A stretch of 64,000 nt of DNA from Spirochaetota bacterium (GTDB lineage Bacteria > Spirochaetota > Spirochaetia > Sphaerochaetales > Sphaerochaetaceae): assembly GCA_918298275.1 (NCBI GenBank), contig CAKJZO010000081.1:1-64000 (forward strand), given 5' to 3'. Below the pieces are notes generated by a model. It did not search any database. It was not told the DNA's origin and saw only the letters and a list, made by a program, of their open reading frames with translations. The first letter of the stretch is position 1. Each line of letters opens with the position of its first letter. A program made the translations under genes and the position numbers. Below, one piece after another: positions 2 through 20,748 of this stretch.

Positions 2-3000
2 TCAAAGGCCCTGTGGTTCAACCTGAGCTACCAGACCTACAACACCTACATGAACGCCAGCACTTATCCGTTCATGACCATCTACCCCGTTGCATCGCTT
101 TCCGAAGACCAGCTCTTCACGCTTGCCGACTACTACACCGACAGCGTCTTCAACCCGATGCTCCTCGAGGACAAGTCCATCTTCGACGAGGAAGCCTGGC
201 GTTATGTCCTCAAGAGCCCCGAGGATGACCTCACCATCGCAGGTACCGTCTACAGCGAGATGCTCGGTGCAACGACCAGAAGCCGCAAGGCCGGAAAGAA
301 CTTCCAGAGCGTGATCTTCCCGGGCAGCTACATCGCCAATGACAGCGGCGGAAACCCGGACGTCATTCCCCAGATGACATGGGAAGACATCAAGGAATAC
401 CACGGAAAGTACTACCATCCGTCCAACTCCCTTACCATCCTCTACGGAAGAATCGATGACTGGAAAGGCTATCTCGAGATGCTCGATTCCTACTTCAAGG
501 CTTACGAGAAGAAGGAGTTCGTCTTCATGGATCCGGGATACAAGCCGATTACGGAATCCAAGACCGCAGAGTTCGACTTCCCTGTCGAAGCTTCGAGCGA
601 CACAACCAATTCAACCACAGTCTACTATGGATTCATCTGCAAGGATGTCGACCAGGAGACCATGAACAAGATCGATCTCATGACCACCCTCGCCGGTGAC
701 TCGAGCTCCGTTCTCATGGAGAACCTCAAGAACGCCCTTCCCTACGGTTCCTTCGGCTGCTACATAGACTTCGGCGGACCGGAAATGATCGTCGAGTTCA
801 TCGCAGACAACGTCAACCCGGAAGATGCAGAGACCTTCAAGGCTATCGTCGACAGTTCAATGGCACAGATTGCAAAGGAAGGATTCGATCCCGTCGTAGT
901 CGATTCCATCGTGGCATCGTTCAGACTCGAGACCCTGCTTTCGGGAGAGAGCTCCAGTGTCGGAACCGATGTCATGCCGAACATCGCCTACTACTGGGCA
1001 GGTGCGGATAAGCTTTACGGCTATCTCGACTTCCTTGACAGTGTCGAGAACTTCCAGAAGTGGAACGACGACGGTTCGTTCAAGGATCTCATTTCCAAGT
1101 ATATCGTCTCCAACGACCTCAATGCCCTTGTCTCCACAAAGGCAGTCGCAGGCCTCAAGGAGCAGAAGGACGCAGAGCTCGCCCAGCGTCTGGCAGAGAC
1201 AAAGGCAAAGATGAGCGACGAAGAGATCGCCGCCATCGTCAAGGCCACCAACGAGCCCGAGGAAGAGACAGCAGACACTGCAGCCATGGTTCGCCAGATC
1301 CAGGTCGTCGATGTCGACAGCCTTCCAGAGGAAGCCAGACTCTATGATATCGAGGATGAGATCGGAGCAGACGGAATCCGCAGAATCTGGGCAAAGGCAG
1401 AAGTATCCGATGTCGGCTATGCCGGACTCCTTCTGGATGCAAGCGGCCTCAGACAGGACCAGATCCACTTCTTCAAGCTGTTTGTCAGCCTCATCGGAGA
1501 GCTTGACACCACTGCCCATACAAGAACTGAGCTTTCAAGCCTGATGACCCGCTACCTCTACAACGGTACAATCAGAATGTCCCTTATCGAGGATGACATC
1601 ACAAAGGAAATGACACCGAGACTCAGAGTCGGCTTCATCGCCATGGATGAAGATATGGAAGCAGCCCTGAACCTTGTTCACGAGCTTATCTTCGACAATG
1701 TCTTCGACGTGACAAGAGTCAAGGACCTGGTTTCCAACCTCAAGACCTCCCTCAAGCAGAGCATCAACAACTCCAGCTACAACACACTGGTCTACAGAGC
1801 TCTTTCAAAGAACGGCGGAACAAACACCTACTACAACTACGCCAACTATCTGGACTACTACTTCTTCCTTGATGCAGTATCCCAGGCAATGGAAACGAAT
1901 CCTGAAGTCGTGATCGCCGGCCTGAAGGAAGTCGTCGAGTACTTCAACAACTCAACCAATGGAATCATCCTGTTCGCAGGAAACGAGACAAGCCATGAGA
2001 ACTACCTCAAGGTCGCAGATGCATGGATGGCCGCTCTGGACAAGAAGCCTATCGAGAAGCAGACATATGAGTTCGAGCCGGTTGCAGATAGCGAGGCAAT
2101 GATCGTCGACTCTTCCGTCAACTACAACGTCATCTATGTTCCCAACGGAACACTCGGCTACGAAGAGGCAACCGGAGACTTCGATGCAGTGTCGGCTCTT
2201 GTCAACGACCTCTATCTCATGCCGCAGCTCAGAGACCAGAGAGGAGCCTACGGCGCCTACATCTATCTCACTGATGAAGGAATCTATGCCTTCACCTACA
2301 GAGACCCGAACATCGCCGACTCCTATGAAGTCTATGACGGTCTTGCAGACTTCGTGTCCAACATCGAGATCGATCAGGAGACTCTGGACGGATACATCCT
2401 GTCTTCCTACTCCGGCTATGCACTGAGCACCGGAGAGCTCACCGGAGCAACATCCGCACTGCTCAACCAGATCGGACATGAGGATCAGGAGAGAATCTTC
2501 GACTACATGAAGCAGCTCAAGAGCATCAAGGCAGAGACATTCGCAGAGACCTACGCTCCCCTGTTCCAGACACTCGTAGACAACTACTATTACTACACTG
2601 CAGGAAGCGCTTCCGCAATCGCAGGTGTAGCAGATGCATTCGACAGCGTCATCAACCCGTTCGGTGTCCAGGACAAGTCGCAGCTGACACTTTCTGACTT
2701 CGACGAGGCAAGCCCGTTCTACGATGCTGTCCAGTTCTGTTTCGTCAACGGTCTCATGGAGCAGGCTTCCGACACGGAGTTCGGAACACAACTTCCAGCA
2801 ACTCTCGGAGAGTTCTCCCAGATCATGGTCGCTCTGCTCGGCGGAGACTACACACAGGCAGACTCCATCACCTTCCTCGCACAGTACGGAATCGTTCCTG
2901 TGATGGATGTGGCAACAGAGCTTACCGTCGGCGACCTGGATATGCTGTGCTGCAACTTCCTTGCCGCAGCTGCCGGAGCCCAGCTTGATTCCCTCATCGC

Positions 3001-3088
3001 AGAGGATCTTGCAACACTCGGAATCACCGCAGAGGATGCTGCAACCAGAGAAATCCTGGCTCTTGCAGTCTACTACATTGCAAACTGA
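2..3088 (+). CDS. M16C (presequence protease/PreP-like) metallopeptidase, 5' truncated by window edge
   Basis: Frame 2 is open from the window edge; N-terminal text KALWFNLSYQTYNTYMNASTYPFMTIYPVAS matches the M16C 'T(F/Y)xNAxTYPxxTxYPVAS' region; ~1000 aa continuous ORF. Confidence 0.88.
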   Translation, partial: SKALWFNLSYQTYNTYMNASTYPFMTIYPVASLSEDQLFTLADYYTDSVFNPMLLEDKSIFDEEAWRYVLKSPEDDLTIAGTVYSEMLGATTRSRKAGKNFQSVIFPGSYIANDSGGNPDVIPQMTWEDIKEYHGKYYHPSNSLTILYGRIDDWKGYLEMLDSYFKAYEKKEFVFMDPGYKPITESKTAEFDFPVEASSDTTNSTTVYYGFICKDVDQETMNKIDLMTTLAGDSSSVLMENLKNALPYGSFGCYIDFGGPEMIVEFIADNVNPEDAETFKAIVDSSMAQIAKEGFDPVVVDSIVASFRLETLLSGESSSVGTDVMPNIAYYWAGADKLYGYLDFLDSVENFQKWNDDGSFKDLISKYIVSNDLNALVSTKAVAGLKEQKDAELAQRLAETKAKMSDEEIAAIVKATNEPEEETADTAAMVRQIQVVDVDSLPEEARLYDIEDEIGADGIRRIWAKAEVSDVGYAGLLLDASGLRQDQIHFFKLFVSLIGELDTTAHTRTELSSLMTRYLYNGTIRMSLIEDDITKEMTPRLRVGFIAMDEDMEAALNLVHELIFDNVFDVTRVKDLVSNLKTSLKQSINNSSYNTLVYRALSKNGGTNTYYNYANYLDYYFFLDAVSQAMETNPEVVIAGLKEVVEYFNNSTNGIILFAGNETSHENYLKVADAWMAALDKKPIEKQTYEFEPVADSEAMIVDSSVNYNVIYVPNGTLGYEEATGDFDAVSALVNDLYLMPQLRDQRGAYGAYIYLTDEGIYAFTYRDPNIADSYEVYDGLADFVSNIEIDQETLDGYILSSYSGYALSTGELTGATSALLNQIGHEDQERIFDYMKQLKSIKAETFAETYAPLFQTLVDNYYYYTAGSASAIAGVADAFDSVINPFGVQDKSQLTLSDFDEASPFYDAVQFCFVNGLMEQASDTEFGTQLPATLGEFSQIMVALLGGDYTQADSITFLAQYGIVPVMDVATELTVGDLDMLCCNFLAAAAGAQLDSLIAEDLATLGITAEDAATREILALAVYYIAN

Positions 3089-6465: not shown

Positions 6466-7944
6466 TCAGATATCGATCTTCTTGCTCTCGTAGTGCTCCT
6501 TGAGCTTCTGTTCCTTGGCAACCTGCAGGTCCGCCACATGCTGCTTTGAAAGCGGATATGCCCACAGAAGCAGGATGCTCATGATGCCGAACATCACGGC
6601 AGGTATCAGGGTTGCGAGGTTGTACATGCTCTTGAGGTTCTCCAGAGTCTGCACCGCACCCTTCTCATACTTGTAGTTCATTCCCATCAGGGCTCCGTTG
6701 ACACAGATGGCTGCAACGACCTGGCCCAGCTTGCGGAAGAACGCGAAGTAGGAATAAGCGGTTCCGTCGTCTCTGGATCCTGTCTTGACATAGATGTCAT
6801 CGATGGTATCGGCAACCATTGCCCAGAGCTGCATGACAAGCACGGTAAGACCGAATCCGCTGATCAGACAGAGTCCGAGGAACGGCCATATGAGCTTCTC
6901 GGGGGACACGCCGCGGAGGAAGAACAGTACGAGGTTTGCAACAGCTGCAAGTATCATTCCGTATGAGGTGATTTCCTTCTTTCCCTTGGACTTTGCCAGC
7001 TTGGGCAGGAAGAACATGAAGACCAGCATCGGAGAGTATGTGCAGGCCTGGGATGCAAGGTTCATCCAGTTTGCATGGAAGTAATCGTTGAACAGATATG
7101 TGTAGAAGCTCTGGGTGAACATCTGGCCTGCAAGAAGCAGCATGGACACCAGGCTGATGGCTACGAACGATCTGTTCTTGAACAGAATCCTTATGGCCTT
7201 CATGCCGGCACCCTTCTCCTTGGGCTGCGGCTTGGTCTTTACCCTTTCCTTGTTGAGCTTGAAGCTGATGAGCAGAAGGACCATTGCAATCAGTGAGATT
7301 GCAACCACGCCCATGATGACAGGTTTGTACATGAGGTCGGTAATCGGCTTTCCGTTCTCTCCGATTACGGGATTTCCTGAAGCATCAAGTCTCTTGGCAT
7401 ATGCGAAGCTTGCAAGGGCAAGGGCCGGGATGGAACCGAGGGCGGCTCCCATGGATCTCCAGACGGAGAGCTTGCTTCTCTCGTGATCGTCAGTCGTGAC
7501 AACCGAAGCCAGGGATCCGTATGGAATCTGCAGCATGGTGTAGACCATTCCGTAGAGGATGTAGGTAACGGTGGCGTAGATGCATGTGCGGCCGTAATTC
7601 TCAGCATCTCCGAGTCCCGGCCATCTGAAGAACATCAGGATGGCTGACAATGTCAGCGGAAGTGCTGCATACAGAATCCATCTGCGGTATCTGCCGTTCT
7701 TACCCGGATGTACGGTATCGGCTATACGTCCCATGATCGGGTCGTTGATTCCGTCCCAGATACGGGCGAAGACGAACATTATCATGATGAACAACGGGCT
7801 CAGGTGGAACACGTCGGTGTAGAATTTCTGCAACAGTGTGGTCACGAGTGCGAATGTGAAGCACCCTGCGGTATCGACCATGGCATAGCCCAGATAGTCC
7901 TTTGTCTTAAGTCCGCTGGTGCGCGAGATGTAGCTTTCGCTCAT
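6466..7944 (-). CDS. GPH-family (glycoside-pentoside-hexuronide:cation) MFS transporter; candidate sulfoquinovose/SQ-glycoside importer
   Basis: GPH features: DPIMGRIADTVHPGKNGRYRRWILYAALP, ~490 aa, 12 TM; same family as E. coli YihO/YihP; divergent from a GH31 gene. Confidence 0.8.
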   Translation of the reverse strand: MSESYISRTSGLKTKDYLGYAMVDTAGCFTFALVTTLLQKFYTDVFHLSPLFIMIMFVFARIWDGINDPIMGRIADTVHPGKNGRYRRWILYAALPLTLSAILMFFRWPGLGDAENYGRTCIYATVTYILYGMVYTMLQIPYGSLASVVTTDDHERSKLSVWRSMGAALGSIPALALASFAYAKRLDASGNPVIGENGKPITDLMYKPVIMGVVAISLIAMVLLLISFKLNKERVKTKPQPKEKGAGMKAIRILFKNRSFVAISLVSMLLLAGQMFTQSFYTYLFNDYFHANWMNLASQACTYSPMLVFMFFLPKLAKSKGKKEITSYGMILAAVANLVLFFLRGVSPEKLIWPFLGLCLISGFGLTVLVMQLWAMVADTIDDIYVKTGSRDDGTAYSYFAFFRKLGQVVAAICVNGALMGMNYKYEKGAVQTLENLKSMYNLATLIPAVMFGIMSILLLWAYPLSKQHVADLQVAKEQKLKEHYESKKIDI

Positions 7945-8025
7945 TTACTTTCCTCCTAATTCAACTTAGAATGATAACATATCACTTTTACTAAATGTTG
8001 TTTAATTTCAAGGAATGGATGAACA

Positions 8026-10371
8026 GTGAAAACCGAACTTGGAAAGATAATTGGTGTAGATACATCTTCTGACGGCTATATCTTCAGAACCGCAAACGGC
8101 AGTCTTGAGGTTGGTTTCAACGGTACGGATTCAATACTCTTTGAGTACAACACAGATTCTTATGATGTTCCAGAATATCTTGATTATGCAATAAAAGAAA
8201 CATACCATGCAAAAACAAGCAATCAGAACTCAGTCCTTTCAGAAGAATCCGACTGCTGGTCCATAGTCCATGCAGACACTGAGATAAAGGTTTCCAAGGA
8301 CAATGCCGTCGTCTCCGTATTCAGAAATGGAATTCTTGTCCACGGAGGCAAGGCAGGCGGCAAGGACACGGTCATTCCGCAGTCACAGTTCAGCCTGATC
8401 TCCGAGGGAAAACACAAAACCGGAAGCTTCACCTTTGCCCTGGAAGATCCGGATATGTTCTTCGGTATGGGAGACAAGAGCGGTGACCCTAACCACAGGG
8501 GCAACAGGTACCGGATGTACAACAAGGATGCCCTGGGCTATGATGCATCCTTCTCGGACCCGCTCTACAAAAGCATTCCGTTCGTGCTCAGGTTCAATGG
8601 AAAGAACAAGACTTTTGCAGGCTACTTCTTCGCCTCCCCTTGCATCGAGGCAATCGACCTCGGAAAAGAAAGTCCGTTCTACTGGTCTGCCGACATAAAC
8701 GGAGGACCGTTCAGGTTCTTCCTGTTTCTGGGCGACGACTACAGGCAGGTTCTGGGACGCTACTGTGCACTTACCGGGCTTCCTGCTCTTCCGCCGCTCT
8801 ACTCCTTCGGCTATCTGGGGTCATCCATGAACTACGTCGAGGCCTATGATGCGCAGAGCAGGATCGAGCAGTTCTTTTCCGATGTAGAGTCCCATGACCT
8901 TCCCTGCGAAGGAATGTATGTCTCTTCCGGATACCTTAAATCGGATGACGGACTCAGGCACGCATTCGTGTGGAACCGCCGCAAGTTCCCGGACCCTGCC
9001 GGATTCATTGCAGGTCTGAGCAGACGCGGCTATCACCTGCTGTTCAATATCAAACCGGGAATCCTGAAGACTCACCCCCAGTACAAGGAGCTGGCGGACA
9101 AGGGATATTTCATCAAGGACAATGAGGGAAAGCCCATCGTAGAATACTTCTGGGGCGGCGATGCCTCATTCATTGATTTTGCAAACCCCGCTGCCTGCTT
9201 GTGGTGGAAGGAAAAACTCAAGGAAGCATATCTGGACAGCGGAGCCGAGGGAATCTGGAACGACAACAACGAATTCGAATTCTCAGACCCTGAGATGAAT
9301 GCCTACAAAACCCGCACCACCTACCCCGTTCTGATGGCCCGCACGGCCTATCAGGCCTGCAGGGAGAAGAACCCCCACATCCGCCCCTGGATCTACTCCA
9401 GAAGCGGCTATGCCGGAATCCAGAAGTATGCGCGCACCTGGAGCGGAGACAACAGCAGCAACTTCCGGACCCTCAGATTCAACCAGTTCCAGGGAATTAG
9501 CATGGGAATCAGCGCCATACCGTTTGTCGGCCACGACCTCGGAGGCTTCTACGGCCCCGAACCGAGCGCGGAACTGCTTGTCCGATGCTGTCAGAGCGCA
9601 ATCTTCCAGAGTCGTTTCGTGATCCACTCCTGGCGCGAGGACGACAGGCCCACCGAACCCTGGAAGTTCCCGGAGGTCCTGCCCCTGATCAGAGAAGCCC
9701 TTCTGGACCACTACCGCCACATCCCCTACATCTACAACGAGGCACGCCACAGCAGCCTCACCGGAGAACCCCTGGAGAGGCTTCTGGTTCTTGAATATCC
9801 CGAGGACGATACCCTTGAGACAAATCAGGAAGACTTCATGTTCGGAAGAAGCGTCCTCAAATCCCCGGTCCTGAATCAGGGCCAGACACAGAGGACGGTG
9901 AGATTTCCCATCGGGGACAACTGGTACAGTCCGAGGCTCGGCAAGCTGCTATGCGGAGGAACGGAAAGGACATTCGATGCCCCACTGGATTCAGTCTGGT
10001 ATTTCTACAAGGCAGGAAGCATCATTCCGCTTTCAGAGAAACCGGGAAAACTGACAACCGGCTTCTTCGGCAACCTTAAAATGCTTGTCCTTCCCAAGAA
10101 CGGAGAGTTCACCTTCTCCTATTTCGAGGACGACGGCGTTTCTGAAGTCACCGAAAGCAGCCACAACATCTGGGAATTCAGCGTTGCATACAATGAGAAA
10201 ACAAAGAAAGGCTCAGTTAGAATCAATCTTCAGCACTGCGGAAACAAAGAGAGCCTGAAAAACAGGAAAATTACGATAGCCTTCCCCGAAGGATTCACCG
10301 GAGAGGTCACTCTTGATGCGGAAGAACTGGACGGATTGCAGGTTTCCTTCAGAGGCTCCTACGTCAGATAA
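8026..10371 (+). CDS. Glycoside hydrolase family 31 (alpha-glycosidase, substrate unknown)
   Basis: GIWNDNNEFEF nucleophile region, WSGDNSSNFRTLR, PFVGHDLGGF, SWREDDRPTEPW; GTG start preceded by AAGGA. Confidence 0.88.
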   Translation: MKTELGKIIGVDTSSDGYIFRTANGSLEVGFNGTDSILFEYNTDSYDVPEYLDYAIKETYHAKTSNQNSVLSEESDCWSIVHADTEIKVSKDNAVVSVFRNGILVHGGKAGGKDTVIPQSQFSLISEGKHKTGSFTFALEDPDMFFGMGDKSGDPNHRGNRYRMYNKDALGYDASFSDPLYKSIPFVLRFNGKNKTFAGYFFASPCIEAIDLGKESPFYWSADINGGPFRFFLFLGDDYRQVLGRYCALTGLPALPPLYSFGYLGSSMNYVEAYDAQSRIEQFFSDVESHDLPCEGMYVSSGYLKSDDGLRHAFVWNRRKFPDPAGFIAGLSRRGYHLLFNIKPGILKTHPQYKELADKGYFIKDNEGKPIVEYFWGGDASFIDFANPAACLWWKEKLKEAYLDSGAEGIWNDNNEFEFSDPEMNAYKTRTTYPVLMARTAYQACREKNPHIRPWIYSRSGYAGIQKYARTWSGDNSSNFRTLRFNQFQGISMGISAIPFVGHDLGGFYGPEPSAELLVRCCQSAIFQSRFVIHSWREDDRPTEPWKFPEVLPLIREALLDHYRHIPYIYNEARHSSLTGEPLERLLVLEYPEDDTLETNQEDFMFGRSVLKSPVLNQGQTQRTVRFPIGDNWYSPRLGKLLCGGTERTFDAPLDSVWYFYKAGSIIPLSEKPGKLTTGFFGNLKMLVLPKNGEFTFSYFEDDGVSEVTESSHNIWEFSVAYNEKTKKGSVRINLQHCGNKESLKNRKITIAFPEGFTGEVTLDAEELDGLQVSFRGSYVR

Positions 10372-11332
10372 GCGGAAGAACCATAACGTTCTTCAGCGAA
10401 CACGGAACAAAGCCGGCAGCCATCTTCTTTGCCGATGACTCGAAGCCTACCAGCAGCTCTGAGCCACGGACCTCGATGTCCTCGCTCATGTGGGGCATTC
10501 TGAGCCTTCCGGCCTGCTTTCTGCTGTCCAGGATGTAGAGCGGTATGGTCTGTCCGTCCTGCACGAAGGTCCCGTCAGGCTGTCCTAGGTTGTACGAAAA
10601 GAGATTCGATGAGGCAAAACCGTGCGAGCATGACATGTAGGCCTTGCCCTCACAGACCGTGAAACCCTGTACGAAATCACGCACAGCAAAGGCCTCTGAA
10701 GGGACTGTCTGAAGCCCGAAAGCCTGTCCGCCGTCCAGCTTGTAGGCGAAAACCATTGCCTGATACTCTCCGTCGGCGGTCTTCAGTCTGTGGCTTTCAT
10801 CGGTCTCATAGCCATCGGCATGGTAGTCGCCGACATACACATACTCGTCATCGGAGGCACAGAACGATGCCCTGCACGGCACCGGGATGTAGCCGACAAA
10901 GCTTACATAGTCTCCGGATGCGGCTTTCACGAGGTCTTCGGTCCGGAGTACGAACAGCTTTGAGGCATTGCTGATATAGACGAAATCGTCTGTAGCGGCA
11001 AGTCCTCCGGCATGGCCGGTGTAGACATCCCCGTTCTCACGCCTGAGCGGAACTTCCTTCACCCGCCCGTCGGCGTACACCATGTAGATGCGCGAAGCCT
11101 CGCTTCCGGGATAGTAACCGCAGATCAGGGTGCATTCCTCACCGTCCAGATAGCTCACACCCTGCGGAGTGAATCCTTTTGAAAGATCGGGAATCAGAAC
11201 ACCCTTCTTGGCCTGACGCGAGAAATCGGGATAAAGAATCCATTTTCCGAGAAGCATGGCAACACCGTAGACAACCAGGATTGCCAGAACAACAAATGCC
11301 AGAACAGAGAGAATCCTCTTCAATAAGCGCAT
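10364..11332 (-). CDS. Conserved membrane-anchored, probable beta-propeller-like protein of unknown function; last gene of the sulfoquinovose-type operon
   Basis: N-terminal TM helix, then repeated GVSYL/GGLAATDDFVYISN/DDEYVYVGDYHADG strand-turn patterns; 18 bp downstream of the SQase gene. Confidence 0.55.
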   Translation of the reverse strand: MRLLKRILSVLAFVVLAILVVYGVAMLLGKWILYPDFSRQAKKGVLIPDLSKGFTPQGVSYLDGEECTLICGYYPGSEASRIYMVYADGRVKEVPLRRENGDVYTGHAGGLAATDDFVYISNASKLFVLRTEDLVKAASGDYVSFVGYIPVPCRASFCASDDEYVYVGDYHADGYETDESHRLKTADGEYQAMVFAYKLDGGQAFGLQTVPSEAFAVRDFVQGFTVCEGKAYMSCSHGFASSNLFSYNLGQPDGTFVQDGQTIPLYILDSRKQAGRLRMPHMSEDIEVRGSELLVGFESSAKKMAAGFVPCSLKNVMVLPLI

Positions 11333-11349
11333 GTTCGCCTCCGCATCGA

Positions 11350-13320
11350 TTATAGCACAGACCTTATTTTATCAAAGAATGACGCCCAGGTGCCGTCCTG
11401 CCTGTAGAAGACCGGGATGCTCCTGTCTTCGATTCTCGAAGAGATCTGATACAGGCCCTTGCGGTAGACCTTGCCGGTGAAGAGATGGACCCAAGTGCCT
11501 TCAGGAAGCCATACATGGCGGCTCTTTGCCCCCTTCTTCAGAATCGGGGCAACAAGAAGCTCCGGCCCGAGCATGTACTGGCTGACACAGTTGCGTGCCC
11601 AGCTCTCGTTGCTGAACCAGTTCATGGGTCGCATGACCGCCAGACCCCTGTCCCTGTTCTCCTCTTCACAGAAAACGATGTAAGGCTTGAGTTTCTTGTG
11701 AAGGTCAGACCAGAAGGCCATGTAAGACAGAGTATCGTCATCGGAATCGAACTGCCAGTTGGTCTGCGGCCTGTTGCCCTCGTGGGTTCTCATGACAGGG
11801 GAGAAGCAGCTCATCTCGGTCCATCTGAGAAGAAGCTCCTTGGTTCTCTTCAGCCAGGCAACCGTCGTGTATCCTCCGATATCGCTGAAAGAGATCCCGT
11901 GGCCACTGTATGCCAGCGAAAGCGCCGCAGGAATCACGGAACCTATGCCGTCATCGCGCGACCAGTCTACGTTCTGGTCTCCTGCCCAGATGCTCTGTGC
12001 ATAATGCGGGCTTTGGGCATTGCCGCTTCTCATGAAGAAGATGATCTTGTCCAGATTGCCTGTTTCTTCCAGGGCTTCTCTGTTGAGCCTTGCCCAGAGA
12101 CCGGGCCACAAATTGTGAGCTTCGGTGCCGCTTATGCCGCTGCAGACCACGGCATCGGTCGGAAGATATTCGCCGAAATCGGCCATCCATCCCTTGCAAC
12201 CGAAGGCGATCATGTTCTGCTTGATCTTGGCTTTGTACCACTCGAAGGCCTCGGGATTGGTCAGATCCACATGACCGCAGTCAAACTCCCCGAAGTCGAT
12301 GAAATAGTCTTCCCCTGCGCTGTTCTTCACAAGATAACCGTTCTTCACCGCCTCGTCACAGAGGCTCTTTCCCTTTATCAGGTAGGGATTGATGTAGGAA
12401 GTGAAAAAGACACCTTGCTTCTCCAGCTCGGGAATCCATGCATCAAGGCCGGGATACATCTCGGGGTTCCATTTCCAGTTCCACAGAACTCGCTTTCCGA
12501 AGGAAGTGACTATCTTTCCCGACCAGTCCTGAGCCCACAGGGCGCAGACGTTCACACCTTTGGAGCGGGCTTTCTCCAGCTTTGCCTTCACAACTTCGGT
12601 TCCGCCCTGGACGCCCAGGATCATGCCGTCATGAACCCAGTCAGGGAGAACCTCCTGTCTGCCCAGAAGAAGACTGACCTTGGAAGCGGTATCCTGAAGT
12701 GAAGATCCGAATCCAAAAACTATGCTCTTAGGCAGACTATAGGACATTATTCTATGACAATCGTGCTTTCTGAAATCAAGGACTCCGTAGTCAAAGCTAT
12801 CGACATGCACAAAGTAGTTTTCACTGGAAACAAACGTCGGCTGCGGATAGTAGGTCGTATGGTATGCGCCGCCTGCCTTGTCGTGCAGCTGTGCAAGAAT
12901 AGTCAGGAGTCTGAAGTATCGTCTTCCCACGCCCTGTTCCCTTGTCATGATCGGGAACCTGTGGCCTCGGAGATTGAAGTACGAATACTGTTCTCCGCCT
13001 CCGTAGACTGCTTCATGACTCGAGGCAGGAAGGGAAATACGGAACCTGTTCCAGTCCCCGCAAACAAGATTGAAGGACAACCTCACGAAGCCGTTGTCCT
13101 CCTCTGCCCTGACTTCTATCTCGGTATCGGCAGCGCTGTAGACTACTCGGCCTGCGGCAACCGAGCAGTTCAGGGAAATCCATGAGATCCGGCTCTCACG
13201 GACCTTGAAGTTTCCCCTGTACATCGAGATATCGGATTTTCCCTTTCCGACGGCTATATCAGGCAGCCGGATAACCCTTCCGTCCGAAGTCCTAAGACCT
13301 TGTCTGTCTATTTCAATCAT
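11350..13320 (-). CDS. GH31 sulfoquinovosidase (YihQ-like SQase)
   Basis: GGGEQ...REQGVGR, LGVQGGTEVVKAKLEKARSKGVNVCALWAQDWSGKIVTSFGKRVLWNWKWN (Q..R..W SQ-recognition residues), GWMADFGEYLPTD nucleophile, WAGDQNVDWSRDDG acid/base region; matches recalled E. coli YihQ closely. Confidence 0.9.
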   Translation of the reverse strand: MIEIDRQGLRTSDGRVIRLPDIAVGKGKSDISMYRGNFKVRESRISWISLNCSVAAGRVVYSAADTEIEVRAEEDNGFVRLSFNLVCGDWNRFRISLPASSHEAVYGGGEQYSYFNLRGHRFPIMTREQGVGRRYFRLLTILAQLHDKAGGAYHTTYYPQPTFVSSENYFVHVDSFDYGVLDFRKHDCHRIMSYSLPKSIVFGFGSSLQDTASKVSLLLGRQEVLPDWVHDGMILGVQGGTEVVKAKLEKARSKGVNVCALWAQDWSGKIVTSFGKRVLWNWKWNPEMYPGLDAWIPELEKQGVFFTSYINPYLIKGKSLCDEAVKNGYLVKNSAGEDYFIDFGEFDCGHVDLTNPEAFEWYKAKIKQNMIAFGCKGWMADFGEYLPTDAVVCSGISGTEAHNLWPGLWARLNREALEETGNLDKIIFFMRSGNAQSPHYAQSIWAGDQNVDWSRDDGIGSVIPAALSLAYSGHGISFSDIGGYTTVAWLKRTKELLLRWTEMSCFSPVMRTHEGNRPQTNWQFDSDDDTLSYMAFWSDLHKKLKPYIVFCEEENRDRGLAVMRPMNWFSNESWARNCVSQYMLGPELLVAPILKKGAKSRHVWLPEGTWVHLFTGKVYRKGLYQISSRIEDRSIPVFYRQDGTWASFFDKIRSVL

Positions 13321-13338
13321 GACTACTCCCGAATAAAA

Positions 13339-14079
13339 CTATATCAGCATGAAGATGCCTGTCAGAAGCAGGCAGATGTAGACCAGAAGCGTGAATACCT
13401 TGCCGTTGACCTTGCTTACCGCAAGGCTGCCCAGGATCACCCCGCCGATTACGAACGGCACCATTATCAGGATTGTCTTCAGGATCTCTCCCGTAACCGA
13501 TCCGTCGGCAATGTATGTAACCGACAGTATCGTATTGAGTGTGACCCACAGAAGGCACAGCGTGGTACGGAAGCGGTCCTTCTCCCTGATGGCGGTCGTT
13601 GCATAGACGATTGCAAGCGGCCCGCCAGAGGAGAACATGCCGTGGACAAGGCCTGCGCCTACAAGTGCCAGGTAAGAATACCAGGACACTGCCTTCGTTT
13701 CTTCTTCCTCTTTGCCCTTCTTGCTTGTCCGATAGTACTGAATCAGCCTGAAAGCCGACACAAGGATGATGAAGACCGCCAGGATCCTCTTGAGAACCGC
13801 GGAATCCACAGCACCCTGAAGAAGGCGTCCCGCAAAGAGGAACGGCAGCATTATTCCCACGATGATCAGATAGTTCTTCCAGTCGATTGCCCTGCGGTTG
13901 CGGATGACCACGGAAAGCTGCGGAACCATGGCCACGAAGGTCAGGGCAACAACGCCCGTATGCATTCCCAGAAGCGCAGTCACGAAGGACACCGCAATCA
14001 CGGTGCCTCCGAAACCGGTAATCACTTCAAGGGTAAACGAGCAGAATACAATCAGACCGCAAAGAAGAACGTTCTGCAT
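13339..14079 (-). CDS. TauE/SafE-family membrane protein, candidate organosulfonate exporter
   Basis: ~246 aa hydrophobic; LVGAGLVHGMFSSGGPLAIVYAT TauE/SafE signature; in sulfonate operon context. Confidence 0.82.
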   Translation of the reverse strand: MQNVLLCGLIVFCSFTLEVITGFGGTVIAVSFVTALLGMHTGVVALTFVAMVPQLSVVIRNRRAIDWKNYLIIVGIMLPFLFAGRLLQGAVDSAVLKRILAVFIILVSAFRLIQYYRTSKKGKEEEETKAVSWYSYLALVGAGLVHGMFSSGGPLAIVYATTAIREKDRFRTTLCLLWVTLNTILSVTYIADGSVTGEILKTILIMVPFVIGGVILGSLAVSKVNGKVFTLLVYICLLLTGIFMLI

Positions 14080-14080
14080 C

Positions 14081-14773
14081 TCAGTCTATGGGAATGACCT
14101 TCCTGTTTTCTCCGAGAAGGCCGATGTGCACGCCCTGGCTTACCAAAGGCTCCCAGTCCCTGTGGGTGATCATGTACTTGTTGGACATGTGCAGGAGCTT
14201 TGATTCGGGGTCACCGTTGGCCTTGATTGCGGCCTTGAGATCCGGATCAAGGGGTCTGTTGGTTCCCATCGGAAGGATGATGACCGTCTTGTAGCCGAAT
14301 CTATCCACCTTGCACGGAGCAAGATGAAGGATCTCCGGCTTGAGAAGGAACGCACATCCCTTGGGAATGTAGAAGACCTCTGCGCAGGAGGAATCCACAT
14401 GGTCGAAATCCACCAGATCCTCGGGAAGCATCCACCACATCAGACAATCGGTGACCGCTATCGTAAGTTCGGGTCCCTTGTGGTATTCGCTTCCGTTCAT
14501 GGAAAAGTTGGGACCGTTGCAGTAGCCGATCTGCGGAACAAGGGCGCCGTAATACGCACAAAGTGCGCTGTCGATTTCAGGCGTGTGCAGCTCGGGGATA
14601 TCGGCCACATAGGTATTGCGCTCGGGAATGACGGTATTCTCATCGATGTAAGAAGCGAGCTTCTCAAAGACCGGGGAGCTAACAAGCCTCGCATAGCGTG
14701 AGAACAGTTTTTCATCCACTGTGTGGATCACGAGGCCGGGGTTCTTCTGCCTAAGCTGCTCCAGTCTGGTCAT
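14081..14773 (-). CDS. DUF4867 family protein (cupin-like, unknown function)
   Basis: QIGYCNGPNFSMNGSEYHKGPELTIAVTDC...FYIPKGCAFLLKPEILHLAPC...GFR/YKTVIILPMGTNRPLD...LLHMSNKYMITH matches recalled DUF4867 pattern; start MTRLEQ gives ATGA overlap with upstream stop. Confidence 0.75.
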   Translation of the reverse strand: MTRLEQLRQKNPGLVIHTVDEKLFSRYARLVSSPVFEKLASYIDENTVIPERNTYVADIPELHTPEIDSALCAYYGALVPQIGYCNGPNFSMNGSEYHKGPELTIAVTDCLMWWMLPEDLVDFDHVDSSCAEVFYIPKGCAFLLKPEILHLAPCKVDRFGYKTVIILPMGTNRPLDPDLKAAIKANGDPESKLLHMSNKYMITHRDWEPLVSQGVHIGLLGENRKVIPID

Positions 14774-15948
14774 AGCAGTTCCTCCAGAAGCGGATAGATG
14801 TTCTCCTTGGTTGCCACGGGAAGCTGGTTCCACATCTTGGGATCGTCGAATGAGCGCTCGAAATTCTCATCGATCTGATCCTTGGAAAGCGTGATTCCGA
14901 GATCAGAAAAACATCTGGGTTGTCTGAGATAGACAGTCAGATTGAAGATATCCTTCTCCAGTGCGCTGACAAGGCCCTCGGTGTCCTCTATCTCGGGATG
15001 GAAGGGCTTTGCTACCTGGGCAAGGTACTTTCTGGTCTGTTCTATCTCACATGCAAGACGGAATACTCCGTTGAGAGTAAAAGCACAGGCCGTACCGTGC
15101 GGGACATGCCAGCTCTCGGAGAGCACGAAGCTCAGCGCATGGCCTGCGGCGGTACCGGTGAGGTTGAATGCCATGCCTGCCATGCAGGAAGCATGAAGCA
15201 TCCTGCGGGCGGCAATGTAGTCCTCTTCTCCGACTTCCTTGCCTGCTTTGATTGCGACGCTTGCATCGTACATGGCTCTGATGTTGGAAAGCACTTCAAT
15301 TGCCGCTGCTACGGAGAGCCTGAGGGTATCGGGCTTTGCGTTCTTGTTCCAGATGGACTCCAGGGCATGGTCCAGCGCATCAAGGCCAGTCGAGGCAACC
15401 AATGCCGGCGGTGCCTTCACCACGAAGTCCTGGACCAGGACCGCCTTGTGGGCATGCATCAGAGGAGAACCCAGCGTGTACTTGCGACCATCGGCAGAGG
15501 TGTAGACTCCGACCTTCGTGACTTCGCTTCCGGTTCCCGCCGTAGTGGGAAGCAGAATCAGATCTGCGCATCTTTTCCGGATCTTAAGCTTGGGGCTGTT
15601 GCCCAGATAATCATCCAGAGCCCCGCCGTTGGTCCTGAGCATGGCAAGGGCCTTGGCGCTGTCCAGGACGCTTCCGCCTCCGATTCCGACGACGACATCG
15701 CACTTTCCGAACGCGGGATCCGAGAACATCTGCATTATGTCCGCAGTCCTGGGATTGGGCTGGACGTTGCTGAAGATGACTGCTTCCTTCTTGGCAAAGC
15801 TTGCCAGAAGCTCGTTCTTGGCATCGATGGGTGCATTGTCAGTGACTATCGCAATCCTGCGGCAGGGTCCGATTATGCTCAGAAGCTCTTTCTTTGTTAT
15901 GTGTTTTCTCTCGAGCACCTTCAGCGGGCTGAGTTTGGAAGAAATCAT
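14770..15948 (-). CDS. Iron-containing (group III) alcohol dehydrogenase; candidate NAD(P)H sulfoacetaldehyde reductase (SqwF-like role)
   Basis: GGGSVLDSAKALA, TTAGTGSEVT, GLDALDHALES metal-binding His pattern; 4-bp overlap with the RpiB-like gene. Confidence 0.82.
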   Translation of the reverse strand: MISSKLSPLKVLERKHITKKELLSIIGPCRRIAIVTDNAPIDAKNELLASFAKKEAVIFSNVQPNPRTADIMQMFSDPAFGKCDVVVGIGGGSVLDSAKALAMLRTNGGALDDYLGNSPKLKIRKRCADLILLPTTAGTGSEVTKVGVYTSADGRKYTLGSPLMHAHKAVLVQDFVVKAPPALVASTGLDALDHALESIWNKNAKPDTLRLSVAAAIEVLSNIRAMYDASVAIKAGKEVGEEDYIAARRMLHASCMAGMAFNLTGTAAGHALSFVLSESWHVPHGTACAFTLNGVFRLACEIEQTRKYLAQVAKPFHPEIEDTEGLVSALEKDIFNLTVYLRQPRCFSDLGITLSKDQIDENFERSFDDPKMWNQLPVATKENIYPLLEELL

Positions 15949-16418
15949 CTGAAGTTCTCCTTCTCGATGTCCTCTACGATGTGGAAGTTCTTTGTCAGGA
16001 ACTCCTTCTTGAACTCCATCTTCTGCGTGAACTGCATCGAGAGCCAGGCATCGACGATCTCACATCCGAGGAAAGGAGCAGTAATCCATCCGCCGAGGGT
16101 GATGACGTTGGCGTTGTTGATGATCTTTGCCCTCTCTCCGGAGAACACGGAATCAACCACACAGGCATAGATTCCCTTGTGCTTGTTGGCAACGATTGCC
16201 ATTCCCTGTCCGGTACCGCAGATCAGAATACCCTTCTCCGCCTCTCCGTTCTGGATGGCCTTGCAGACCTTGGGAGCCTGCTCGGTATAGGGATGCGGCT
16301 CGTTCTCGTTGGGAATACCGAAATCCAGAATCTCGATTCCGCCCTTGGCGGTCAGATGTTCTACTATTGCCTTCTTGAGCGGATATCCGCTGAGATCCGA
16401 TGCGATTGCTATCTTCAT
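15945..16418 (-). CDS. RpiB/LacA-family sugar(-sulfonate) isomerase; candidate sulfoerythrose isomerase (SqwI-like role)
   Basis: MKIAIASDLSGYPLKKAIVEHL...GILICGTGQGMAIVANKHKGIYACVV; AGGAG six nt before ATG at 16418. Confidence 0.85.
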   Translation of the reverse strand: MKIAIASDLSGYPLKKAIVEHLTAKGGIEILDFGIPNENEPHPYTEQAPKVCKAIQNGEAEKGILICGTGQGMAIVANKHKGIYACVVDSVFSGERAKIINNANVITLGGWITAPFLGCEIVDAWLSMQFTQKMEFKKEFLTKNFHIVEDIEKENFR

Positions 16419-16432
16419 ATTGTTCTCCTTGC

Positions 16433-17371
16433 TCATTTCAATATCGATTTGACTTTGGCGCAGATATCCTCTGCCCTAAGATTGTATTCACCTACCAGAT
16501 AATCCACCGTTCCGACCTGCCCGAAGCGGTCGTCGATTCCTATATATCCGATCCTGCATCCGGGACACTCCTGGGAAAGGAGCTTGGTAACTGCAATTCC
16601 CAGCCCTCCGTCGATCTGATGGTTTTCACATGTGACCACTGCGCCGGTCCTTTCGGCACAGGAAACAATCAGGTCCCTGTCGAGCGGCTTAACCGAAAGA
16701 GCATCGATAACAGTAGCCTGGATTCCTTCTTTCTTTAGTTTTTCTGCTGCGGCAATTGCATTATGAACCATCAGTGCACCCAGAGCTATGATTGTGACAT
16801 CACCGCCTGAGCACAGTATCTTGGAGCGTCCGAGCATAAAGTGCTCAGCTTCTCCGTAGATATCGGTCGCCGCTTGTCGCTGGAGACGCAGATAGCAGCT
16901 TCCCTTATGCTCGTACATCGCCCTGACTATTCCCTTTACGGATGCACAGTCGCTGGGCTCGGCAATAACCAGATCCGGAACCATCCTCATAATCCCGATG
17001 TCCTCGAATGCCATGTGGGTTCCGCCGTTGAAGGCAGCCATAACTCCGGGGTCAGTTCCGACAAGCTTTACATTGAGCTTGGCATAGTTTGCGGAGATGA
17101 AGAACTGGTCGAATGTCCTTCTTGCGGCAAAGCAGCTGAAGGTGGATGCAAACGGGACAAAGCCCTGGGTGCTCAGACCGCTGGCAATGCCGACCATGTT
17201 GGCCTCTGCTATTCCGCAGTCGATTGCCCTCTTTCCGAGCTTGTCCTTCAGAGACAGCGTTCCGACGGATCTCATGAGGTCGGCATCCAGAATCACTACG
17301 TTCGGGTCCTTTTCACAGAGTTCCATTATCGCTTCACAGTAAGCGGTCCTGAGTTCTTTCAGTTCAGCCAT
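16433..17371 (-). CDS. Transketolase C-terminal subunit (split transketolase; SqwH-like role)
   Basis: RTAYCEAIMELCEKDPNVVILDADL...GIAEANMVGIASGLSTQGFVPFASTFS; overlaps N-terminal subunit gene. Confidence 0.9.
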   Translation of the reverse strand: MAELKELRTAYCEAIMELCEKDPNVVILDADLMRSVGTLSLKDKLGKRAIDCGIAEANMVGIASGLSTQGFVPFASTFSCFAARRTFDQFFISANYAKLNVKLVGTDPGVMAAFNGGTHMAFEDIGIMRMVPDLVIAEPSDCASVKGIVRAMYEHKGSCYLRLQRQAATDIYGEAEHFMLGRSKILCSGGDVTIIALGALMVHNAIAAAEKLKKEGIQATVIDALSVKPLDRDLIVSCAERTGAVVTCENHQIDGGLGIAVTKLLSQECPGCRIGYIGIDDRFGQVGTVDYLVGEYNLRAEDICAKVKSILK

Positions 17372-18189
17372 TGCGGATCCTCCCCGTGGTAAAGCTCCCT
17401 CACTTCCTGCAAGGTGACCTTGGCGTTGTGGCTTTCGGCCTTGTTCTCAAGCCTTGGAAAGCCCTTGGCCTTGACAGTGTCGCATATGATCATCTTGGGC
17501 TTGCCGTTCTTCTCATGGCAGCGGGAGAACGCCCTATCCAGGTCCTTCAGGTCGTGTCCATCGCAGCGGAAGACCTCCCAGCCGAAGGCCTGCCACTTCT
17601 CTTCAAGGTCCTTCAGCCCTACGACCTCGGCAACCTGGCCGTCAAGCTGGAGCTTGTTGTAATCGGTCATCACGATCAGGTTGTCCAGCCTGTTGGCGCT
17701 TGCGAACATCGCGGCCTCCCAGTTCTGACCCTCTTCCGTCTCGCCGTCTCCGATGATGCAGTAGACCCTCTGGTCCTTGTAGCCCAGCTTTGCGCCGTAG
17801 GCCATGCCGCAGGCAACGGAGATACCCTGTCCCAGAGAACCGGTACTCATGTCTATGCCGGGGGTCCTGTTCCGGTCACAATGGCTCGGAAGCAAGGTTC
17901 CTCCCTTGTTCAGGGTCTTAAGCCACTGCATGGGGAAATAACCCTTCTCTGCCAGAACGGAATACAGAGCCGGTCCGGAGTGGCCCTTGGAGATAACCAG
18001 CAGATCCCTGTCATCTCTCTTGGGGTCCTTCGGATCCAGGTTCCTCATCTCGCCGTTGAACAGGGTCGTCAGTATCTCCACGATGGACATTGAACCGCCC
18101 AGATGTCCTACGCCCAGATTTGCAATGCAGTACAAGCAGTTCTTGCGGGTAAGCGCTGCAAATCTTTCAAGTTCGGAATAATCCTTCAT
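17359..18189 (-). CDS. Transketolase N-terminal subunit (TPP-binding; SqwG-like role)
   Basis: GHLGGSMSIVEILTTLF, KGHSGPALYSVLAEKGYF, GDGETEEGQNWEAAMFA TPP motif. Confidence 0.92.
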   Translation of the reverse strand: MKDYSELERFAALTRKNCLYCIANLGVGHLGGSMSIVEILTTLFNGEMRNLDPKDPKRDDRDLLVISKGHSGPALYSVLAEKGYFPMQWLKTLNKGGTLLPSHCDRNRTPGIDMSTGSLGQGISVACGMAYGAKLGYKDQRVYCIIGDGETEEGQNWEAAMFASANRLDNLIVMTDYNKLQLDGQVAEVVGLKDLEEKWQAFGWEVFRCDGHDLKDLDRAFSRCHEKNGKPKMIICDTVKAKGFPRLENKAESHNAKVTLQEVRELYHGEDPQWLN

Positions 18190-18202
18190 CTATCACCTCT
18201 TA

Positions 18203-19531
18203 TCAATATCTTTCCACAGGTATGTCCAGCAGTCGGCAGAATGCCTCAAGCTCATCCCTTATGTCGGCATAGGCAACCACGAAGTGAGGCTCCCAGCCTG
18301 CCTGCACGGAAGCATAGACAAGCTTCTCGGCATCGGCAGAAGTCTTCACGACAACAGATGCGCCCTGGAACTGCTTGCTCTTTTCAAGTGCCTCCCCGCC
18401 TGCGATGAAGGCCCTGAAGGTCCCGTTGCCGTCCTTTCCGATCCTGAACACCGTCACGGAAGCACATGGCCTGCAGCCGAAATCCATGGCTGGACCTATC
18501 TTCCTGTTGGGGTGCACTCCGATGGTGGGTCTGGAAGCCAGGGACGGTGCACACATTCCGCAATGCCAGTAGGTTACTGTGTTCTCGGAGGCATTCATCG
18601 AGACGGGATCTCCGAAGAAGACCGCTCCGCCTGAGAGTCTGGATGCAATGAACATGGAAACTGCTCCGTAGACATCGCTTTCACAGGAGCTGGCAATTCC
18701 CATGTCGTTGAGCATGGAGAGAACCGCACAGTTGGGAGTTCCGAACTTCGTGAACAGATCAGGCCAGCATCTGGAACCTATGACCTTCACGTTGTTCTCG
18801 GCGCAGAAGTCGCTGTAGGCCTTCATGAGCCTCGAATAGCCTTCCATGTTTACTTCCGGAATACCTTCATAACCGCAGCATGTCGATCTGAAGGCATCAA
18901 GGTAATCCCTGCACTCCTCTGCTGTGTACGATTTGGCCTTGTCGAGAATCTGCTCAAGGGGCACATTGACCAGACCGGCTCCGAAGAGTCTGCCGATGTC
19001 AGAGGCATCCGCACGGCCGAAATCAAAGCCTTCCGGAGTGTCCCCGATGGCCGCCACCGTGGTCTCGCGAAGCTGCTTCATGGCCTTCACCGCCTTGCCG
19101 TTGGCCTCGATTGCCTTGCGTACGGCAGCATCTTCAGGAGAGCCGAAAACATATCCGAAGTTGCCTTTTCCGCGCTTTTTCATCATGTTTGCCGCGGAAT
19201 AGGCACCCGTCAGCGAGTTCAACCGAAGCCTCTTGCCATCAATTACCGGCTCCTTGAGAGTCCACAGAAGCACCGGGACATCGGCAAATACATCCATGAC
19301 TGCTGAACAGTAGGCCGCATTGGCAAAGGTGATGTTCTGCAGGACAATCAGATCCGGATTGACCGAAGCAAGATAGTCCTTCAGATCCGCAATGGACAAA
19401 AGCATTTTGTCAGGACAGACTGCCTCATCGGCAAACAGAGAACGCATCAGGGCACAGGACTTTCCGAACTGGTCCCCTGCCACCTCAAGATCGAACGTGG
19501 GTACGCCGATCGGAACATAAACGAACTGCAC
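18203..19531 (-). CDS. L-fucose/arabinose isomerase-like protein (COG2407-like); candidate sulfoquinovose isomerase
   Basis: C-terminal SCESDVYGAVSMFIASRLSGGAVFFGDPVSMNASENTVTYWHCGMCAPSLA is fucose-isomerase-like; GTG start at 19531 preceded by GGAGGG (ORF open to ATG 19570). Confidence 0.75.
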   Translation of the reverse strand: MQFVYVPIGVPTFDLEVAGDQFGKSCALMRSLFADEAVCPDKMLLSIADLKDYLASVNPDLIVLQNITFANAAYCSAVMDVFADVPVLLWTLKEPVIDGKRLRLNSLTGAYSAANMMKKRGKGNFGYVFGSPEDAAVRKAIEANGKAVKAMKQLRETTVAAIGDTPEGFDFGRADASDIGRLFGAGLVNVPLEQILDKAKSYTAEECRDYLDAFRSTCCGYEGIPEVNMEGYSRLMKAYSDFCAENNVKVIGSRCWPDLFTKFGTPNCAVLSMLNDMGIASSCESDVYGAVSMFIASRLSGGAVFFGDPVSMNASENTVTYWHCGMCAPSLASRPTIGVHPNRKIGPAMDFGCRPCASVTVFRIGKDGNGTFRAFIAGGEALEKSKQFQGASVVVKTSADAEKLVYASVQAGWEPHFVVAYADIRDELEAFCRLLDIPVERY

Positions 19532-19647
19532 TTGTTTTTCCCTCCGAAATAAAGAGAGTCGCTTATCCATTGTATCACGTTTTCAGACTAATACCACGGG
19601 TTAACTAAATATTACCGGAGAGAAGATACATTAGTAACTGTAGGTTT

Positions 19648-20748
19648 TTAATCGCGGGAGTGGATCTCCACACCCTTCTCTGAGAGTTCCTTCTTGATGG
19701 CAGTCTTGTTTTCATACATACGCGCATCGGCAAGACGGATGGCATCTTCGAGGGAAGTCTCCGAATTGAGCATGGCATAGCCGAACGAGCAGATATATGA
19801 AGTCTGCTTGAGGTCCTCACGCATATGGACAATGATTGATCTGATATCGAACTCGTTCGTATTGCGGCAGATTATCATGAACTCGTCACCGCCGACGCGG
19901 TAGGCCGTGCAGTTCTGCGGACAATCCTTGCGGAAGACTCCGGAAACCACTTCCAGCGCCATATCTCCTGCCTCATGGCCAAGGTTGTCGTTGAGGTACT
20001 TGAGTTCGTTCATGTCGATTGAAACCACACCGGTGATGGTCTGGGATTCCATCACCATGTCCTGATAGAAGCTCTGACGGTTGGGAAGTGATGTCAGCGG
20101 ATCCATCTTGGCCATGTGTATGTAGACAAGCACATAGTAAAGCAGGATGGCAGAAGTGAAGATAGCACTGTAATCCTTGAACCCGTCGAAGTAGAAATAG
20201 AGCAATACTCCTACCAATGCGCCGAGGACTATGTAGCGGGAAGCTGTCCTGTTCATCTTGGAATAACTGCGGAAATAGCGGATATTCTGAACTACGAAAA
20301 CGATAATATAGAAGCCGAACAGCACATACGGCAGGTATCTCAGCGGTCCGGCTGCAAAATGGTTGCTCTCATGGTACCAGACAACGATATGTGTCCACTG
20401 AGAGAAGAAGAACAGCGGAAGGCTTATAAGCCAGGGAATGACAAACAGCCAGGCTCGTCTTGGAATCCCGTTGGTTTCCGTAAGGATGGTCATGATCATC
20501 AGAATCAACGGATAGAGGGAATAAAGGCATGCCGTCAACATGGGTCTGAGGAGACTGAGGTGCTCGAAAGTCTGGGTCCATTTCTCAAGCTCGAAGATAA
20601 TCGATTCCAGAAGAAGAAGGACAACGACGATTATAGTCAGCTTCTTCATCCTCTCCGAAAGGTGCGCACTCACACCGAGGATGACCATCAGGCCTATCAG
20701 CTCATAGATCATGGAATAGTTTTCAAGGAAATAGTTCACGATCCACAT
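19648..20748 (-). CDS. Membrane-bound GGDEF domain protein (probable diguanylate cyclase)
   Basis: Multiple TM helices; MDPLTSLPNRQSF...YRVGGDEFMII intact GGDEF. Confidence 0.92.
   Translation of the reverse strand: MWIVNYFLENYSMIYELIGLMVILGVSAHLSERMKKLTIIVVVLLLLESIIFELEKWTQTFEHLSLLRPMLTACLYSLYPLILMIMTILTETNGIPRRAWLFVIPWLISLPLFFFSQWTHIVVWYHESNHFAAGPLRYLPYVLFGFYIIVFVVQNIRYFRSYSKMNRTASRYIVLGALVGVLLYFYFDGFKDYSAIFTSAILLYYVLVYIHMAKMDPLTSLPNRQSFYQDMVMESQTITGVVSIDMNELKYLNDNLGHEAGDMALEVVSGVFRKDCPQNCTAYRVGGDEFMIICRNTNEFDIRSIIVHMREDLKQTSYICSFGYAMLNSETSLEDAIRLADARMYENKTAIKKELSEKGVEIHSRD

Follow-up and report, generated by a model that had tools for sequence, protein, structure and literature searches.

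A predicted sulfo-transketolase operon for sulfoquinovose fermentation in a Sphaerochaetaceae genome

Sulfoquinovose (SQ) is a very abundant plant sulfonate, and fermenting it yields isethionate, a feedstock for sulfide production in the gut. The sulfo-transketolase pathway is known from Clostridium sp. MSTE9 (Liu et al. 2021, reviewed in PMC9594981 and PMC12890257), where the gene set comprises SqvD, SqwG, SqwH, SqwI, SqwF, SqwE and SqvB, and isethionate is the predicted product. Sulfo-transketolase clusters have already been described in Spirochaetes (PMC12890257), and according to a 2026 study, 11.8% of 246 Sphaerochaetaceae genomes encode the pathway and a rumen Sphaerochaetaceae MAG transcribed it during SQ degradation, with isethionate formed in the microcosms (PMC13219744). 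Neosphaerochaeta fermentans, a rumen member of the Sphaerochaetaceae, is described as having the sulfo-transketolase pathway with a YihQ, and its genome also encodes SqgA (PMC13219744).

Here, we describe a locus that most probably (at about 0.9) serves the fermentation of SQ glycosides by the reductive sulfo-transketolase pathway. It lies in a window – the whole stretch of 64,000 nucleotides that was analysed, from contig C81 – of a metagenome-assembled genome of 1.83 Mb that is 86% complete, so absences from the genome are provisional. The pathway is not new to these organisms and the locus is a further case of a described route; what is added is a residue signature in SqwI, a likely exchange of importers, a fusion of SqwG and SqwH in relatives, and the exclusion of a second GH31 protein as a sulfoquinovosidase. 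The locus also adds a rumen spirochaete lineage to the predicted fermenters of SQ to isethionate.

The open reading frame layout and matches to family profiles define one minus-strand operon at 10364-19570, with two further genes beside it. The genes originally named here, with their coordinates, strand and order, were all confirmed, and are given below in order of transcription for the operon, followed by its two neighbours.

18203-19570, minus strand: SqvD, fucose-isomerase-like, SftI-type candidate SQ isomerase (NF048012 SftI; clusters of relatives)
17359-18189, minus strand: SqwG, N-terminal ThDP-binding half of a predicted split sulfofructose transketolase (Transketolase_N)
16433-17371, minus strand: SqwH, C-terminal half of the split transketolase (Transket_pyr and Transketolase_C)
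15945-16436, minus strand: SqwI, candidate sulfoerythrose isomerase (LacAB_rpiB; residue signature)
14770-15948, minus strand: SqwF, candidate Fe-dependent sulfoacetaldehyde reductase (Fe-ADH)
14081-14773, minus strand: DUF4867 (SqvB/SftX), a cupin (PF16161; fold and metal ligands)
13339-14079, minus strand: SqwE, TauE/SafE-family exporter, likely for isethionate (TauE match; conserved order)
11350-13320, minus strand: YihQ, predicted GH31 sulfoquinovosidase (PRK10426; PDB 5aed; residues)
10364-11332, minus strand: membrane-anchored beta-propeller protein, the last gene of the operon (AF2 model; no Pfam family)
8026-10371, plus strand: second GH31 hydrolase, not YihQ-type, a separate unit (nearest solved protein 6jr6)
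6466-7944, minus strand: GPH-family sugar:cation symporter, a separate unit (TIGR00792 gph)

From SqvD through the last gene, the spacings are +13, -13, -4, -4, -4, +1, +18 and +17 nt, such that the original description of neighbours overlapping or lying within about 20 bp holds for the operon. It does not extend to the GPH gene and the second GH31 gene, which are separate units, divergent from each other and outside the operon, with the latter converging on the operon end in an 8-nt overlap. SqvD may begin at a GTG near 19531, 13 codons in and with a GGAGGG ribosome site, instead of at its ATG; for DUF4867 the most likely start is the ATG at 14773, which overlaps SqwF by 4 nt, and not a longer GTG start. 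A GGDEF-domain membrane protein is encoded on the same strand 77 nt upstream of the isomerase (19648-20748, minus strand), an arrangement that, of the clusters compared, only that of the closest relative (G006) also shows. Elsewhere in the window, a PreP-like M16 peptidase gene (50-3088, plus strand) has its first 65 residues near-copied (86%) on contig C30 of the same genome.

Gene content, gene order and diagnostic residues are read directly from the DNA, and from homology we infer all of the enzyme activities in the following scheme. The GPH symporter is the most likely entry route for SQ-glycerol or SQ, and YihQ would free SQ from its glycoside; DUF4867 may open or mutarotate the SQ ring, as proposed in the literature, and SqvD would convert SQ to sulfofructose. 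SqwGH would transfer one C2 unit from sulfofructose to glyceraldehyde-3-phosphate, leaving sulfoerythrose, which SqwI would isomerize to sulfoerythrulose. Removal of a second C2 unit by SqwGH would leave sulfoacetaldehyde, to be reduced with NADH to isethionate by SqwF and exported by the TauE-type SqwE.

Compared by gene content, the locus has the same SqvD, SqwG, SqwH, SqwI, SqwF, SqwE and SqvB as Clostridium sp. MSTE9, but is in a spirochaete, includes YihQ within the operon, has neither an ABC importer nor a ROK regulator among the clustered genes, and has a GPH symporter nearby. N. fermentans, compared by description, shares the habitat and probably the family, although its transporter content may differ (PMC13219744). 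The E. coli yih cluster (sulfo-EMP) has a YihQ that is 46.6% identical with all key residues alike, but the operon here contains no kinase/aldolase route, its isomerase is unrelated, and the GPH protein is only 25-28% identical to YihO/YihP. A search for YihT, run without a positive control, gave no match in the source genome.

The closest comparisons are with relatives. The order SqvD-SqwG-SqwH-SqwI-SqwF-DUF4867-TauE recurs at 53-97% identity in five of them (G001, G002, G006, G007 and G016), a recurrence far greater than chance would give. Among named genomes, the nearest belong to rumen Spirochaetales of roe deer, cow and water buffalo, and records labelled Sphaerochaeta within the same family point to the Sphaerochaetaceae. 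The core order is found, at these identities, in RGIG4911, RUG12683, RUG14151, RGIG8110 and RUG11866. These differ in their accessory genes: a ROK regulator is present in RUG12683, RUG14151, RGIG8110 and RUG11866 but not in RGIG4911, and RUG14151 and RUG11866 also have an ABC importer. RUG12683 and RGIG8110 encode SqwG and SqwH as a single fused protein, whereas the two are split here. More widely, searching GTDB species genomes with a SqwI profile gives 331 relatives; the best 80 of the 331 are mostly from Spirochaetes, and also from Anaerolineae, Verrucomicrobia and one Clostridiales bin. In nearly all of these 80, SqwG and SqwH adjoin SqwI, and SqwF, TauE, DUF4867, an SQ isomerase, a ROK regulator and YihQ are often close by. 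SqwG-H-I clusters in Anaerolineae/Chloroflexi and Verrucomicrobia are represented by L054, L061, L063, L094, L096, L101, L105 and L109.

YihQ scores 793 bits against PRK10426 (cut-off 553), is 46.6% identical to E. coli YihQ, and has YihQ structures as its top PDB matches (5aed at 3.8e-198). In the E. coli enzyme, Q262, Q288, R301, W304 and Y508 are responsible for SQ recognition, and D405 and D472 are catalytic. The corresponding residues here are Q238, Q264, R277, W280, Y484, D381 and D448, so that all seven – the Gln/Gln/Arg/Trp/Tyr recognition set and both Asp residues – are kept, bearing out the proposed YihQ-like GH31 of the operon. Two other spirochaetes with sulfo-transketolase clusters have YihQ homologues (L038:2968-4965 and L039:5379-7430) in which Gln replaces the sulfonate-binding Arg301. 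The second GH31, considered as a further YihQ-type candidate, is a different matter: both catalytic Asp residues are there, but V, S, a gap, H and F occupy the five recognition positions, and with none of the five residues present it is rejected as a sulfoquinovosidase of that type. Its nearest solved protein is 6jr6, and in G002 the equivalent gene (L043:283-2676) is interrupted by an in-frame TAG.

SqvD matches the SftI family over its full length (NF048012, 356 bits, residues 15-455), below the strict equivalog cut-off of 700, and is accepted as a family member on this profile match, not as an equivalog; it is 65-92% identical to the isomerases in the G006, G002, G007, G001 and G016 clusters. 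In most other spirochaete clusters (L031, L033, L038, L039 and others), the role is filled by a different SQ-isomerase subfamily, with about 24% identity to the one in the window. DUF4867 matches PF16161 at 168 bits, and its profile matches B. megaterium SqvB (PDB 9gyy) at 2.3e-78. Its AF2 model (pLDDT 90.5) has the cupin fold, with a TM-score of 0.88 to 9gyy, and the invariant E96, H98, E102 and H150 match the metal ligands of that protein. A role as an SQ/SF mutarotase or ring-opener is proposed, and SftX had no mutarotase activity in published assays (PMC11968277). At the reductive end, SqwF matches Fe-ADH at 111 bits, and its best NCBIfam match is PsrA-type at 168 bits, ahead of the SarD sulfoacetaldehyde reductase at 132 bits, both below cut-off. 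SqwE matches TauE at 90 bits, and its position after SqwF/DUF4867 is conserved in relatives.

The split transketolase is identified by its neighbours. SqwG matches Transketolase_N at 167 bits and is 72-96% identical to its counterparts in sister clusters; SqwH matches Transket_pyr at 119 bits and Transketolase_C at 91 bits, keeps the catalytic Glu56, and has the Carboxydothermus split transketolase 6yaj as its nearest solved protein. The two are fused into one frame of 613-614 residues in G001 and G007 (L024:5044-6885 and L025:4830-6674), which supports both halves working as one enzyme. We looked for residues that might mark the sulfo enzymes and rejected the idea, as no alignment column discriminates, including against the genome's other split transketolase; at the positions of human H416 and D424, the sulfo-linked and most other split transketolases alike have Asp and Asn. 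Moreover, the SqwH tree places the SqwI-linked sequences in more than one clade. The assignment therefore rests on context, with SqwG and SqwH adjoining SqwI being the diagnostic feature, and the transketolase sequence by itself cannot tell a sulfo from a non-sulfo split enzyme, a point on which the original reading went too far.

SqwI, by contrast with its RpiB relatives, has a signature of its own. It matches LacAB_rpiB at 137 bits, and we aligned it with RpiB structures, comparing 92 SqwI sequences with nine RpiB-family paralogues from the genus. RpiB binds phosphate through two residues, a His and an Arg, and opens the sugar ring with His99. The catalytic Cys73 is kept in all 92 SqwI sequences; in every one of them Leu15 stands for the phosphate-site His, Trp117 for the phosphate-binding Arg, and Ile or Val at position 106 (I106 in the window protein) for His99, whereas the nine paralogues mostly have H, H and R at these positions, setting SqwI apart from ribose-phosphate isomerase. 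The first and third positions are not wholly specific by themselves: one paralogue (L191, in G007) retains His99 but no longer has the first His or the Arg. Because 4-deoxy-4-sulfoerythrose carries a sulfonate and not a phosphate, and has no C4 hydroxyl with which to form a furanose, these changes are as expected of its isomerase, and the signature fits an open-chain sulfonated tetrose as the substrate. Direct measurement of SqwI is hampered by spontaneous isomerization, and more characterization has been called for (Wei et al., PMC9594981). The signature offers a direct mutational test for an enzyme that is hard to measure owing to its spontaneously isomerizing substrate (PMC9594981), and may mark sulfo-transketolase clusters in metagenomes. 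We found no mention of it in the sulfo-transketolase literature covered, which did not include the original 2021 description, and priority is not claimed.

Two other accounts of the operon can be weighed against the sulfo-transketolase pathway. It might degrade an ordinary, non-sulfonated sugar using pentose-phosphate-type enzymes – the fucose-isomerase-like protein, split transketolase, RpiB and ADH – and the nearest solved relatives of SqwH and SqwI are indeed the pentose-phosphate split transketolase and RpiB, with transketolase residues that do not discriminate. However, YihQ has the full set of SQ-recognition residues, the phosphate-binding and ring-opening residues of RpiB have gone from SqwI, and DUF4867, TauE and the SftI-type isomerase sit in the same operon and recur together; we consider this account very improbable. 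Still less credible to us is a transketolase/transaldolase pathway of the bifurcated kind found in Faecalicatena and Caproiciproducens, which makes both C3 and C2 sulfonates. Such clusters are known from anaerobic gut bacteria, but the operon has no transaldolase and the source genome gave no PF00923 match, in a search whose control was positive in 10 of 14 genomes; a branch to C3 sulfonates is thus not expected, and the original description, too, listed no transaldolase in the gene set. The operon also contains no SqwD or SqwKL genes, and a PFL-like glycyl radical enzyme was not found in the source genome. With neither that enzyme nor a transaldolase, isethionate is probably excreted through the TauE-type protein and not desulfonated. 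The sulfo-transketolase route put forward in the original prediction is accordingly the one favoured by a complete gene set in a single compact operon, the YihQ residues, the SftI-type isomerase, the SqwI subfamily, the ligands and fold of DUF4867, the order of genes with SqwF and a TauE exporter both in the operon, and the lack of a transaldolase.

How SQ enters the cell is a more finely balanced question. The clusters of G002, G003 and G016 contain a solute-binding protein, permeases and a ROK regulator. No orthologue of the solute-binding protein was found in G000, G001, G006 or G007 (best matches about 25-31% over partial length), and the ROK regulator was not found in G000 or G006, so that the SQ clusters of this species and its closest relative have neither the ABC importer nor the ROK regulator that others carry. 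The missing ABC importer leaves the GPH symporter, by elimination, as the likely importer. This protein scores 251 bits against TIGR00792 gph (cut-off 231) and thus belongs to the GPH family, but at 25% and 28% identity to YihO and YihP it lacks the close kinship implied by the earlier link to these two proteins. Each of the six SQ-positive genomes of the genus carries this symporter, at 81-97% identity (two fragments in G003 give 74-81%), and none of the five SQ-negative genomes gives a strong match. A wider linkage of this subfamily to SQ clusters was not seen: across 398 genomes of the class, nothing beyond the genus matched above 40%. The GPH gene, second GH31 gene and SQ locus co-occur within the genus in 6/6 versus 0/5 genomes, with G005 having only a 44% GH31. 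One gene tree groups SQ-positive G002 with SQ-negative G009 and G010. This co-occurrence is suggestive only, since G002 has these genes in physical linkage and some of the MAGs, several in number, are incomplete.

The GPH protein and second GH31 could instead be an independent alpha-glycoside module that happens to lie beside the operon, with SQ entering via an unlinked system; this would bear on uptake alone and leave the pathway untouched. The second GH31 has none of the YihQ recognition residues, in G001 and G007 the GPH and GH31 genes are neither near the SQ locus nor near one another, and other SQ clusters use ABC importers, all of which would suit such a module. Set against these are the strong GPH matches confined to SQ-positive genomes of the genus, and the presence of GPH in all four genomes lacking the solute-binding protein orthologue. 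We judge the independent module somewhat short of an even chance, and import of SQ or SQ-glycerol by the GPH protein a little better than even. The combined proposal – that SqwI is a sulfonate-adapted offshoot of RpiB, marked by the Leu, Trp and Ile/Val replacements, and that a GPH symporter unlike YihO has in this lineage taken the place of the SQ cluster's ABC importer and ROK regulator – stands in our estimate at the toss of a coin.

The last gene of the operon, originally listed as encoding an unknown membrane protein, does encode a membrane-anchored product, and its AF2 model (pLDDT 86) now identifies it as a beta-propeller, with general propeller matches. A specific role in SQ metabolism or as a sulfolipase component is not supported, as the gene is unlinked to the SQ locus in G001 and G007, was not found in G002, and has only these general matches. 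Among the genomes searched, the protein is nearly confined to the genus.
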